NCBI GenBank assembly: GCA_022448085.1
Contig: JAKUTH010000027.1
Location: 1 to 33,630 of the forward strand
Direction: 5' to 3'
DNA length: 33,630 nucleotides
Source of the DNA: Pseudomonadales bacterium
GTDB lineage: Bacteria; Pseudomonadota; Gammaproteobacteria; Pseudomonadales; Azotimanducaceae
In this document: positions 19,110 to 31,184 of the stretch, piece after piece
Layout: the number at the start of each line of letters is the position of its first letter
Numbering within the stretch: the first letter of the stretch is position 1
The notes under the pieces: generated by a model
What the model was told of the DNA's origin: nothing
Databases searched by the model: none
What the model saw: the letters and a program-made list of their open reading frames with translations, nothing else
Position numbers and translations under genes: made by a program

Positions 19110-19134
19110 AACGGCCGCTCATATAAAGGCCGTT
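19110..19134. terminator. Candidate bidirectional hairpin between convergent genes
   Basis: AACGGCC (19110-19116) and GGCCGTT (19128-19134) pair perfectly around an 11-base AT-rich loop, four bases after the P450 stop and running into the stop of the opposing gene. The position suits a shared terminator, but no clear T-run follows on either side, so intrinsic termination is uncertain. Confidence 0.35.
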
Positions 19135-20299
19135 ACAGCGGAGGATATTCTTCCAATACCGATTCGTTGGGTTCGGTACCCCAACCAGGACGATCGGGGA
19201 CCTTGACGTAACCTTCCTCGATACTCGGTGCATGTGTGAAGATTTCGGCGTCACCGATGAAACGATCGATATCGGTTTCCATGATCTTTAGGTTCGGTAC
19301 CGCGGCGCAGAAATGGACATTCATCATTGTGGCTAAATGGCCATAGTAGTTGTGGGGCGCGATGTTGACCTGATAAGCGTCTGCCGCGGCTGCGATTTTG
19401 AGCGATTGCCAAATGCCAATCCAAACGGCGTCGATGATGGCGATATCCAAGGCCTCCTGTTGAAAATAAGGAAGGAATTCCACCAACCCAGTGAGTGATT
19501 CACAGCCGCTAATAGTGAAGGGGCTTTGTTGGCGGATCGTCGCCAACGCACCGGCGTGCGGTGTATCAATCTCAATCCAAAATAGATCGTGATCACGTAA
19601 GGCCCGCAACAGTGTCAGGTAGCCTTCGGTTCGGGCATTGAAATTGAGATCCAACAAGATATCCATCTCGGCACCAGAACCTTCCCTAAAAGCATAAAGA
19701 TAGTCTTGTAACCCATTAATAATATTACGTTTTGGTGTCCTTTCTGGCTCGTTCGGGCCGCCAAAACCGGGGGACCACCCGACCATGCCGTTCGGTGTTT
19801 CTCGGAAAATATTCGTTTTCAACGCAGTGAATCCCCGCTCGGCGACCTCTGCACCGAGCGCGCGAACATCGTCCAAGGTCGCCACGGCGGGTGGGTATAT
19901 TTCAGGCCGGGAAATACGCCAGGTACCGCAATGGGACCAATACACCCGAACCCGATCACGTATTTTTCCACCCAGCAACTCGTGGCATGGAATCCCCAGT
20001 TCTTTTGCCTTAGCGTCGAGAACGGCGTTTTCGATGGCACCGATAGCTCGTGGCAACACGCCGACCAATGATTGGCGGGCTGCGGCCGTCAGACGGGCAT
20101 AGATGGCCTCGTGGTTTCTGACGTCGTGACCGACGATGAGGTGGCCGAGTTGTTCGATGGCGGTAGTGACCCCCACCGGTCGAAAGCCGTCGTCGTATTC
20201 GCTCCAGCCAACGATGCCGTCGACGGTTTCGATGCGGACGAAGTGGTAATTGCGCCAGCCAGCATTGCAATGACGGGTTTCAACGGTTTCGATTTTCAT
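19133..20299 (-). CDS. Mandelate racemase/muconate lactonizing enzyme-type enolase-superfamily protein
   Basis: 388-residue enolase-superfamily enzyme that would abstract a proton alpha to a carboxylate bound to Mg. Metal ligands are visible as D217 (in LLDLN219), E243 (FWIEID) and E267 (GCESL). A His-Asp dyad of the mandelate-racemase subgroup is likely formed by H316 (APHNY) and D290 (IIDAVW). The KxK motif of the opposite side is K161-T-N163, so the second Lys is replaced by Asn, as in some acid-sugar dehydratases such as the galactonate dehydratase type. Racemase chemistry using both faces is therefore unlikely; dehydration of a hydroxy acid is more plausible. The start at 20299 excludes 41 non-homologous upstream residues. 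It is divergent from the acyl-CoA carboxylase. Confidence 0.85.
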   Translation of the reverse strand: MKIETVETRHCNAGWRNYHFVRIETVDGIVGWSEYDDGFRPVGVTTAIEQLGHLIVGHDVRNHEAIYARLTAAARQSLVGVLPRAIGAIENAVLDAKAKELGIPCHELLGGKIRDRVRVYWSHCGTWRISRPEIYPPAVATLDDVRALGAEVAERGFTALKTNIFRETPNGMVGWSPGFGGPNEPERTPKRNIINGLQDYLYAFREGSGAEMDILLDLNFNARTEGYLTLLRALRDHDLFWIEIDTPHAGALATIRQQSPFTISGCESLTGLVEFLPYFQQEALDIAIIDAVWIGIWQSLKIAAAADAYQVNIAPHNYYGHLATMMNVHFCAAVPNLKIMETDIDRFIGDAEIFTHAPSIEEGYVKVPDRPGWGTEPNESVLEEYPPL

Positions 20300-20447
20300 G
20301 TTGAGTCGGCTGCCTCGGATCGTTTTAGCTGAGAAGACACGGGAGAGTAAACGAAGATGCTGCGAAATGGGGTTTGATCCAATGAGAGTTATAGGATCGT
20401 AGCGTTGATACGGATCCAGCACATCGGATTCTGCGTTCTTCGTTCCT

Positions 20448-28429: not shown

Positions 28430-28908
28430 CGCTTGATACGCCGACGGGCCGTGACGACCTCGGTATTAAGCCCCAACCAGTGCATACGCCCCATATAACG
28501 TGCGTGTTCAATTTTGAGGCAACGGTCCATCACGACGTCGAGGCCGGCGTCGGCGGCGATGGCGGCTCCTTCGTCACTGATGACTCCAAACTGAAGCCAT
28601 AATGCTTTGGCACCAATGGCTACGGCTTCTCTAGCTATGGCAGGTACGGCGGAGGGATCTCGAAAAACGTTGACGACGTCGACTGCATCGCCGACGGCGG
28701 TCAATGAGTTAAAACATGGCTCGCCGAGGACTTCTTCTTCTCGGGGATTAACCGGGATGATTCGATAGCCATGTCTTTGCGCGTAATAGCCCACAAAGTG
28801 ACTTGCACGTAATGCGTTGGCCGACAAACCGACGACGGCGATGGAACGACCGGTGCGCAATACACGCTGTATTGTGGCTGGGTCCTGATACTTAATCGTT
28901 TTAGGCAA
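28426..28908 (-). CDS. CoA-binding domain protein, YccU-like
   Basis: Rossmann-type CoA-binding protein (CoA_binding_2 family) of 160 residues. The motif SIAVVGLSANALRASHFVG opens the nucleotide fold, IIPVNPREEEVLGEPCF and VVNVFRDPSAVP follow, and KALWLQFGVISDEG and DRCLKIEHAR close it, all as in E. coli YccU. The molecular role of the family is not settled; it resembles the CoA-binding part of succinyl-CoA synthetase alpha without the catalytic His region. It follows the sulfhydrylase gene with an 8-base overlap (28901-28908), so the two are probably one transcription unit, and it overlaps the convergent acyl-CoA dehydrogenase by four bases. Confidence 0.9.
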   Translation of the reverse strand: MPKTIKYQDPATIQRVLRTGRSIAVVGLSANALRASHFVGYYAQRHGYRIIPVNPREEEVLGEPCFNSLTAVGDAVDVVNVFRDPSAVPAIAREAVAIGAKALWLQFGVISDEGAAIAADAGLDVVMDRCLKIEHARYMGRMHWLGLNTEVVTARRRIKR

Positions 28909-30184
28909 AGGCCTGCTCCAAATCCCATTGAAGGTCGTCGATATCCTCGATCCCGATCGAAAGGCGAATGGTCCCAGGCGCGATACCGGCTGCTTGCAGT
29001 TCGTCGTTGTTGAGTTGTCGGTGGGTGGTACTGGCGGGGTGGATGATCAGACTTTTTGCGTCCCCGACGTTGGCGAGGTGTGAGAACAGCTGCACGTTGC
29101 GGATGAAATTCTGACCCGCGCCGCGACCGCCCGCGAGCTCAAAGCAGAAAACGGCGCCAGCGCCTTTAGGAAGATACTTCTCTAACAAGGCGGCGTTTTC
29201 TCTGTAGTGCAGCGCGGGATGGCTGACACTGATTACGTCGGATCGAGCGTCCAACCAAGTTGCTACGCCGAGAGCGTTTGATACGTGTCGATCCATCCGG
29301 AGTGGCAACGTTTCTATGCCTTGCAGGAAAAGGAACGCGTTGAAAGGACTCATGCATCCGCCTAAATCACGCAGTGTCTCGGAGCGTAGTTTCATGAGAA
29401 AGCCATACATCCCAAATGTTTCGTGGAAAGCGAGCCCGTGATACGCATCGGATGGTTCGGCAATGACGGCAAACTTGCCATTGGACCAATCGAAATCTCC
29501 GGAATCGATCACCACCCCGCCGATGCTAGTTCCGTGTCCGCCAAGGAACTTGGTAGCCGAGTGAATAACGATATCAGCCCCCCACTCGATGGGCCGGCAC
29601 AGGTACGGCGTGGCAAAAGTGTTATCCATAACCAACGGTATCGAGTGATTGTGGGCGACCTCGGCAATTCGCTCAATGTCCATGACGTTACCGCCAGGAT
29701 TGCCGATCGTTTCGCCGAAGAATAGACGCGTCTGTTCAGTTGTAGCTCTATCCCATTCATCCGGATCGTCCGGATCGACGAACGTTAGCTCGACCGACAA
29801 TTTCTTCAACAAATGCTTGAGTTGAGTAATCGATCCGCCGTAGAGCGCTCGTGACGCAACGACATGGTCACCCGGAGAAAGTAACGTAAAGAACGTGGCG
29901 GATTGTGCGGCGAGTCCGCTGGCGAAGGCAACGCCACCAACGCCACCTTCGAGGTTCGCAATCCGTTCTTCGAAAGCGGCGACCGTCGGGTTCATGATCC
30001 GCGAATAGGTATTGCCGTATTCCTGCAAGTTAAAGTACGCGGCCGCGGATTCGGGATCTTCGAAAACGTAGCTACTTGTTTGAAAGATGGGGACAGCACG
30101 AGCACCGGTTTCAGGTTCCGGTCGAGCTCCGGCATGCAACGCTCGTGTCCGAAAACCAAATTGCCGGTCCGGTAAATCTGTCAT
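28901..30184 (-). CDS. metY: O-acetylhomoserine sulfhydrylase (aminocarboxypropyltransferase), PLP-dependent
   Basis: Makes homocysteine directly from O-acetylhomoserine and sulfide in methionine synthesis. Length 427 residues is typical of MetY and longer than MetB/MetZ. The PLP lysine is K212 in SATKFLGGHG; LHAGARPEPETGARAVPI at the start, YSRIMNPTVAAFEERIA for the partner-subunit phosphate contact, and SLIIHPASTTHRQL with the C-terminal substrate-binding Arg in IRLSIGIEDI are standard for the Cys/Met-metabolism PLP family. The ATG at 30184 fits the family start. It heads a two-gene unit with the YccU-like protein and is divergent from the selenoprotein gene by 79 bases. OAH versus OSH use cannot be told by eye. 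Confidence 0.93.
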   Translation of the reverse strand: MTDLPDRQFGFRTRALHAGARPEPETGARAVPIFQTSSYVFEDPESAAAYFNLQEYGNTYSRIMNPTVAAFEERIANLEGGVGGVAFASGLAAQSATFFTLLSPGDHVVASRALYGGSITQLKHLLKKLSVELTFVDPDDPDEWDRATTEQTRLFFGETIGNPGGNVMDIERIAEVAHNHSIPLVMDNTFATPYLCRPIEWGADIVIHSATKFLGGHGTSIGGVVIDSGDFDWSNGKFAVIAEPSDAYHGLAFHETFGMYGFLMKLRSETLRDLGGCMSPFNAFLFLQGIETLPLRMDRHVSNALGVATWLDARSDVISVSHPALHYRENAALLEKYLPKGAGAVFCFELAGGRGAGQNFIRNVQLFSHLANVGDAKSLIIHPASTTHRQLNNDELQAAGIAPGTIRLSIGIEDIDDLQWDLEQAFA

Positions 30185-30263: not shown

Positions 30264-31184
30264 ATGCGGCAACCACCCATCGATTACATCGAGCGCACGC
30301 GTGAGCAGTATGCGGCGCTTGGATATCCGCCTTATCAATGGGTGCGGAATCAAGAGCCTCTTGCTCTGTCGATTCCGATAAAGCCGATGCACGAGTGGCG
30401 TGTCGGACTGATCGCTTCCGGCGGTATCTACGTTGCGGGGCAGGTCGCCTTTCATTTTCGCGATGACATTAGCTATCGCGAAATTTCTTGTGATACGCCA
30501 ACGGATCGGATTAGAACGACGCACTTCGCGTACGACCTGACCGATTCGCGCCGCGACCCCAACGTCGTTTTTCCAATGGACACGCTCCGTGGTCTGGTAC
30601 GAGACGGTACCGTCGGTGAGCTTTCACACTGCGCGTATACCTTTATGGGCGGAATTTACTCGGCCCGAAAAGTCCGTGACGTGCTGGCACCAGCGATCGT
30701 GACCAGGCTGCTGCGAGATGAAGTTGACGTCGCTTTGATGGTTCCGGTCTGACCCGTTTGCCACCAGTCCGTCGGACTGATCGCCCGTGAAGCAGAAAGC
30801 CGAGGCATTCCGTCGGTGAGCCTCTCTAGTGCCTGGTCAATTAGTCGGTCAGTGAACCCTCCTCGGATGGTTTACCTCGACTTTCCGCTCGGTCATACCG
30901 CGGGGCGTGCCCACGACGTTCAATCTCAAAAGGCGGTCGTCATGGCGGCGCTCAGATTGCTAGAAGAGGCGAGGGATCCGGGGAGTGCCACAACGCTCTC
31001 CCAGCGATGGTCTAACGACGATGCGTGGAAGGATGCTGTCATGCGACCTAGGATCAAAGCGGATCGGGATGGGGAGTTTGACGACGACCGTATGGAACGC
31101 TTTGCTACGCCTCAATACCAGGAATCGGAAGACGCTGATCTCGTGACTGGGGATTGTTCGACGTGTGTTTGGTTAGAAGAGTAG
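30264..31184 (+). CDS. GrdB/PrdB-like selenoprotein (glycine/sarcosine/betaine/proline reductase selenoprotein B family), Sec at UGA
   Basis: One 306-residue protein interrupted by an in-frame TGA at 30750-30752 that I read as selenocysteine 163. Reading on in the same frame there is no further stop until TAG at 31182-31184, and the sequence is continuous in character: VPV-U163-P-V-C166-HQSVGLIAREAE, then GIPSVSLSSAWSISR and MVYLDFPLGHTAGRAHD. The UxxC motif followed by QSVGL and the N-terminal half (YREISCDTP, HFAYDLTDSRRDPN, YTFMGGIYSARKVRD) match the selenoprotein-B family of Stickland reductases, which has PrdB-like members in marine bacteria. The UGA is followed by C, a weak termination context, and a hairpin lies 12 bases on. 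A C-terminal CSTC may be a resolving redox pair. Partner GrdA/GrdC-like subunits are absent here, so the reaction in this organism is unknown. Automated annotation would break it at 30752. Confidence 0.85.
30765..30779 (+). promoter_or_regulatory. Candidate bacterial SECIS hairpin
   Basis: CAGTCC (30765-30770) and GGACTG (30774-30779) pair perfectly around GTC, starting 12 bases after the in-frame TGA. In E. coli fdhF the essential upper stem-loop that binds SelB lies about 11 bases after UGA and shows GU in the loop, so place and form agree. The hairpin lies inside coding sequence, as bacterial SECIS elements do. Confidence 0.65.

Follow-up and report, generated by a model that had tools for sequence, protein, structure and literature searches.

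PrdB-type proteins rank with the most frequently counted selenoproteins of surface seawater, as far as the accessible text of the marine surveys goes, yet they are named for an anaerobic enzyme whose partner subunit seems to be missing from the host studied here, which is probably a marine bacterium. The stretch of its DNA that we analyzed (33.6 kb; hereafter, the window) carries one such gene with a TGA inside the reading frame, and the locus raises two questions: is this codon read as selenocysteine (Sec), and what would the protein do on its own? The only interruption of the frame at 30264-31184 is the TGA at 30750-30752, and the residues at the joint read VPV-U-PVC-HQSVGL. The original prediction of one frame split by a single TGA, with a UxxC motif at the joint, was exact in its coordinates (30264, 30750-30752, and 31184) and puts Sec at residue 163. 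Because an in-frame stop lies two codons 5' of the ATG at 30264, this is the earliest possible ATG. When the window was searched for TGA codons flanked on both sides by 60 or more open codons, 22 sites were returned, two of which have Cys at +3; the family libraries were run only on the frame of 30750-30752 (Table 1). The other TGA with Cys at +3 (window position 19617, minus strand, UHCC) is inside a long ORF (19133-20422) and is probably due to chance.

Table 1. Positions of the selenoprotein gene, its sites, its divergent neighbor (all in the window), and the paralogues in the host genome.
Feature	Position	Strand	Remarks
PrdB/GrdB-like selenoprotein gene	30264..31184	+	306 aa, Sec163 (translation with TGA=U), ATG 30264, TAG 31182-31184
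TGA read as selenocysteine (Sec163, U-P-V-C motif)	30750..30752	+	TGA in 48/68 homologues; sel genes in genome
Cys166, UxxC partner of Sec163	30759..30761	+	Invariant in 17-row alignment A2
SECIS-like apical stem-loop	30764..30780	+	Columns 15-31 from T of TGA; family covariation
C-terminal CxxC (Cys298-Ser-Thr-Cys301)	31155..31166	+	Five residues before C-terminus
O-acetylhomoserine sulfhydrylase, divergent neighbor	28901..30184	-	TIGR01326, 599.3 bits; relation to selenoprotein uncertain
Host paralogues L061, L062, L063	C116:48663-49430, C59:27660-28262, C64:4568-5179		One in-frame TGA each

To compare the site among relatives, a peptide-pattern scan was run over one genome per species (84,980 species). 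It recovered six relatives with 35–96% identity, five with TGA (L009-L013) and one with Cys (L014). Four of these (L009-L012) are near relatives (88–96% identity) that have the TGA in the same position, and the relatives sharing the TGA range from 53–96% identity. An order-wide search found a homologue in 27 of 390 genomes. Over 68 homologue rows, the site is Sec in 48 and Cys in 20, bearing out the expectation of Sec/Cys pairs at residue 163. The dN/dS ratio is as low after the TGA (0.165 vs L009, 0.18 vs L010, and 0.077 vs L011) as before it (0.103, 0.205, and 0.073, respectively), indicating that the second half is translated in the same frame; dS was saturated in the comparisons with four more distant relatives.

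A stem-loop downstream of the TGA shows covariation across the family. The family model pairs columns 15-20 with columns 26-31. In the window, CAGTCC (columns 16-21) pairs with GGACTG (columns 25-30) around a GTC loop, one pair further in than in the model, and the outermost pair (15/31) does not form. In the 252 cells from 42 distinct sequences, pairing reaches 95.2%, compared to 67.4% in shuffles, and two-sided changes were counted in 69 cells, compared to 19.0 in shuffles (0 of 500 shuffles reach 69). All six model pairs show two-sided changes in these 42 distinct rows, and the window forms five of the six. Because this region is coding, pairing by itself could mislead, and a slid-partner control was run beside the shuffles, in which pairing dropped to 8.7–40.9%. 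The loop has G-T at columns 22-23 in 37 of 40 distinct rows. Stem pairing seems to couple the amino acids at +6 and +8, which in 46 rows are S/G (14), T/S (14), T/C (7), or one of five other combinations (11). At least five of the six pairs are kept in 47 of 48 Sec rows versus 3 of 20 Cys rows (4 of 20 when L133 is read by hand). Single-sequence folding of the window stem-loop was not significant (z -0.79). As predicted from these sequence features, SelB would bring Sec-tRNA to the UGA at 30750-30752, directed by the stem-loop just 3' of it. The Cys form L133, from a genome with no selA match (G935), has five of six stem pairs and a GTG loop in the hand reading, and its stem may be what remains of a Sec insertion signal that has been lost.

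The host genome (G000; 2.66 Mb, 137 contigs, 94.6% complete) contains the complete set of selA, selB, selD, and tRNA-Sec genes for which the original prediction had proposed a search. The tRNA-Sec gene (selC, 69.2 bits), selB, and selA lie together within 3.4 kb on contig C73, selD is on contig C51, and all four exceed their curated cut-offs. The selD match (L019, G000:C51:15946-16848) is part of a 731-residue open frame, a length that would allow fusion to a further domain. Among the 390 genomes of the order, selA is present in 25 of the 27 with the gene and in 31 of the 363 without it (Fisher p 9e-22, relatedness ignored); outside the host's family, the counts are 9 of 11 and 29 of 361 (p 2e-8). 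In one set of four TGA-form genomes searched for selA, three were positive. Genome G302 has a TGA form but lacks a selA match despite a completeness rating of 99%, and G167 has no selA and a homologue that is a fragment without the Sec/Cys site. Conversely, selA is absent in 11 of 13 searched genomes with Cys forms, a count that leaves out G1003, G1071, G1088, G919, G1001, G921, and the genome of L014; a Cys form occurs together with selA in G652, which also has a TGA-bearing relative, and despite selA in G351. A superfamily member is found near selA in three other genomes, i.e., G021 (about 0.15–0.2 kb, divergent), G652 (1.3 kb), and G479 (13 kb), which supports a tie to selenium, not any substrate. 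At the G021 locus (L059 4933-11160), the homologue and selA-selB point away from each other, their open frames 146 bases apart, and after the homologue come a CoA-binding gene and an O-acetylhomoserine sulfhydrylase gene, the same kinds of genes that flank the window gene; in our reading, the 644-aa frame beyond selA there is selB.

Based on these results, the TGA at 30750-30752 is almost certainly a Sec codon at which selenocysteine is incorporated. A genuine stop or a sequencing error, with two separate ORFs or a pseudogene as the result, is scarcely credible. A 122-aa ORF does open at GTG 30816, but the bridge between the TGA and this GTG is conserved, which argues against two genes. The same TGA is kept in other assemblies, which makes the sequencing error at 30750-30752 considered in the original prediction very unlikely, and it is shared by most homologues. 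The low dN/dS on both sides and the covariation of the downstream stem-loop also speak against this reading, and pseudogene, assembly error, and two separate genes were rejected.

The best NCBIfam model for the protein is PrdB (TIGR04483: 140.7 bits, equivalog cut-off 300), which aligns residues 40-246 to model positions 25-231 and includes Sec163, which by offset corresponds to roughly position 148 of the 238 in the profile. The gathering cut-off of PF07355 (GRDB) is exceeded (41.9 bits vs 22; residues 30-160), the best stretch ending before the Sec, and the score for TIGR01918, the glycine/betaine/sarcosine selenoprotein B subfamily, is 55.1 bits, under the cut-off of 65.45. Because PF07355 is passed and both TIGR04483 and TIGR01918 are failed, the protein is a superfamily member outside both curated subfamilies; we place it in the PrdB/GrdB superfamily with high confidence, and it is not PrdB proper. 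The kinship proposed from the sequence is hence upheld by the profile matches, though under both curated subfamily cut-offs. The window protein shares with Clostridium sticklandii PrdB (Sec152 of 242 aa; PMC3091704) a homologous domain whose UxxC motif holds Sec at the matching place. Like GrdB, it scores over the PF07355 cut-off, whereas in G226 and G356 true GrdB has its UGTC motif at residue 358-365 of the frame and the genomes include a GrdE gene, neither of which applies to the window protein.

Proteins of this kind are already known from seawater, as the original prediction had stated. In the Sargasso Sea survey of 2005, PrdB ranked third in abundance among the known selenoprotein families, with 42 genes (Sec) (PMC1088965), and the GOS survey of 2008 counted 235 Sec and 110 Cys forms (PMC2398784). 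The marine 'Proline reductase PrdB' of these surveys resembles the window protein in its UxxC motif, seawater origin, many Sec forms, and bacterial SECIS; the accessible text of both papers gives family counts, with no breakdown for a CxxC-tailed subfamily.

A tree was built from 68 homologues, leaving out L012 (run of N, frame lost), L055 (same place as L013), and L064 (contig end). Its main divisions are true GrdB, a pair of groups made up of longer relatives, a large clade in which Sec and Cys forms are mixed, and the clade containing the window gene, where every row has Sec (15 of 15, support 89/86). Within this all-Sec clade, the window gene belongs to a 10-row subclade (support 96/95). 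The Sec/Cys label changes six times on the tree, at least four times on well-supported branches. When searched from ten residues past the site to the frame end, a CxxC is present in 10 of 10 subclade rows versus 0 of 58 others, located 133–141 residues after Sec and 4–11 residues from the C-terminus. This all-Sec, 10-member subfamily with a C-terminal CxxC is apparently new: we found no description of a CxxC tail or a stand-alone PrdB-like subfamily in the accessible literature, subscription papers being mostly beyond reach. Given that Sec and Cys versions exist naturally and that the tail is confined to one clade, the question of what PrdB-type proteins do is directly testable. The host genome encodes four TGA-bearing members (the window gene and those on C116, C59, and C64), and two of the paralogues L061-L063 have open frames of about 390–400 residues and fall in separate clades. 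Neither these paralogues nor the C-terminal CxxC and the covarying stem-loop had featured in the original prediction. In two further homologues, L060 (G220:C19) and L083 (G279:C2), the matches cross a TAA besides the TGA, and their C-terminal ends may be truncated.

Beyond the redox motif, the residues D98, P104, S133, D155, R175, E178, R201, W249, and W255 are invariant in alignment A2. Neither the protein nor the A2 profile had a sequence match in the PDB. In a structure model built from six sequences (pLDDT 68.4, pTM 0.74), Sec163 is positioned between a strand (156-160) and a helix (164-179); the last 48 residues are below pLDDT 50, and the model is therefore neither for nor against docking of the tail on Sec163. 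A Foldseek search with this model gave no match at E 0.001 or better. Using VIA-align, matches with Z up to 8.3 were obtained, mostly to LacI-type and other Rossmann-like domains, which we read as a common arrangement in the predicted fold, not as kinship. No PrdB or GrdB chain was among the structure matches listed, which excludes nothing.

Around the gene, the start codons of the selenoprotein gene and the divergent O-acetylhomoserine sulfhydrylase gene are separated by 79 bases; the latter is followed by a CoA-binding gene, and a fumarase gene lies downstream of the selenoprotein gene. The window also encodes a TauD-type dioxygenase, a P450, a luciferase-like monooxygenase, an epoxide hydrolase, an acyl-CoA dehydrogenase, an enoyl-CoA hydratase, and a branched-chain-type transport permease, a gene content from which we infer aerobic catabolism. 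The surroundings of oxygenase and beta-oxidation genes described earlier were thus found again (TauD-type, P450, luciferase-like, acyl-CoA dehydrogenase, and enoyl-CoA hydratase genes).

To determine if partner subunits are encoded elsewhere, we searched whole genomes. The GrdE-type partner (PF09338) had no match in G000, G039, G350, G315, G351, or G255, and as a positive control the same model was found in G226 and G356, both of which have true GrdB (UGTC motif). The PrdA model (TIGR04480) matched nothing in G000 or five relatives (G039 and G350 among these), a search with a partial control in that no genome was over the cut-off and weak matches fell at or near the GrdE genes of G226 and G356. 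None of GrdA, GrdC, and GrdD was present among the 13 window genes scanned. The earlier statement that no partner is in view therefore extends genome-wide in G000 for the GrdE and PrdA models, with a missed partner possible at the 94.6% completeness of this genome. The window gene likely does something other than Stickland fermentation, and the novelty of its product apparently lies in the tail and the missing partner. It is very unlikely that the protein serves as a genuine subunit of a proline, glycine, sarcosine, or betaine reductase with its partner encoded elsewhere. Such a role would agree with PrdB being the best NCBIfam match and with the naming of PrdB-like genes as proline reductase in the accessible text of the 2005 and 2008 marine surveys, but the scores are short of both cut-offs (140.7 vs 300 bits for PrdB; 55.1 vs 65.45 for selenoprotein B), and PF09338 and TIGR04480 are empty in G000, G039, and G350, whereas GrdE is present in G226 and G356. 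True D-proline reductase was rejected, the protein being under the PrdB cut-off and the host genome having no PrdA match.

The characterized systems provide the elements of a proposed working. In the scheme proposed for D-proline reductase, the substrate is held by the PrdA pyruvoyl group and attacked by the PrdB selenolate, the selenoether is then cleaved by a PrdB cysteine, and reduction of the selenide-sulfide falls to the PrdC terminal redox group (PMC3091704). Clostridial PrdB is encoded in an operon with PrdA (pyruvoyl) and PrdC, whereas the window protein has no PrdA match and an added CxxC tail. By analogy, the tail resembles the redox pair near the C-terminus of PrdC, the electron-transfer selenoprotein of D-proline reductase (Sec392 of 428; PMC3091704), for which a role in reducing the PrdB selenide-sulfide is proposed; PrdC, however, is a protein of its own that has NADH, FMN, and iron-sulfur sites, and the window CxxC belongs to the PrdB-like polypeptide. 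According to published descriptions, enzymes of the GrdB and PrdB types bind amine substrates through a carbonyl group (PMC10838667, PMC3091704), so that without a pyruvoyl-type partner amine substrates are less likely and another chemistry is needed. In FarB from Cloacibacillus, which takes part in monofluoroacetate degradation, Sec is proposed to attack the carbon-fluorine bond (PMC10838667). FarB is a GrdB relative, like the window protein, and suggests that the superfamily can change substrate, even though it is proposed to work with FarE and in an anaerobe, unlike the window protein (PMC10838667).

Taken as a whole, the window gene probably encodes a selenoprotein from a branch of the PrdB/GrdB superfamily for which the host genome showed no pyruvoyl-type partner, a stand-alone selenol reductase whose Sec163-Cys166 pair may be recycled by the CxxC tail. 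The Sec163 selenolate would attack an electrophilic small-molecule substrate, Cys166 would resolve the product to a selenenyl-sulfide with Sec163, and the C-terminal CxxC would reduce this bond and be recycled itself by thioredoxin or glutathione. A tail within one chain would in this way do the job proposed for the PrdC terminal redox group toward PrdB. The relay step, with the CxxC in place of an external reductant, is drawn from this analogy and is put forward tentatively, as somewhat short of probable. As substrates, peroxides or electrophilic carbon compounds, the latter as proposed for FarB (PMC10838667), are both open candidates. The main rival is a selenoprotein that reduces peroxides or disulfides, acting as a peroxidase or thiol oxidoreductase, and performs no reductive cleavage of organic substrates, a serious possibility if not a probable one. 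It would fit the oxygen-using genes of the window (TauD-type dioxygenase, P450, and luciferase-like monooxygenase), the CxxC tail, which could serve as a resolving pair, and the missing partner. In our reading, the invariant set extending far beyond the redox motif suggests instead a specific substrate pocket; in addition, no peroxide-defence gene was seen among the neighbors scanned, which are a part of all neighbors, and the model matches, with middling Z, are mostly LacI-type or Rossmann-like, not thioredoxin folds. The selenol reductase reading in its most specific form, a one-chain selenoreductase for oxic seawater that is related to the pyruvoyl-dependent PrdB/GrdB enzymes, dispenses with their partner, and has the CxxC tail as its own electron donor, we regard as rather unlikely; if true, chemistry of anaerobic fermenters would run inside aerobic marine bacteria.

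Gene neighbors were clustered over 49 loci (window included) and 22 added loci, with loci of 3.3 to 18.4 kb beside the longer window, and were named by HMM scans of representatives only. No gene cluster adjoins all members of the window subclade (49 loci clustered), and thus no pathway link backs any substrate. O-acetylhomoserine sulfhydrylase and CoA-binding genes adjoin the homologue in the closest relatives of the window and in L059, sodium:solute symporter genes (under PutP cut-offs) adjoin L052 and L072, and an Lrp/AsnC-type regulator gene is upstream of L013; no pathway emerged from these neighbors or from the CoA-transferases. A family III CoA-transferase gene is located directly downstream of Cys forms from one genus of the phylum with large genomes (eight loci: L129-L131, L135-L138, and L140), which were grouped by clustering and named by the HMM match of the L131 gene. 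Such a CoA-transferase gene also adjoins L014, a betaproteobacterial Cys form, and the host paralogue L061.
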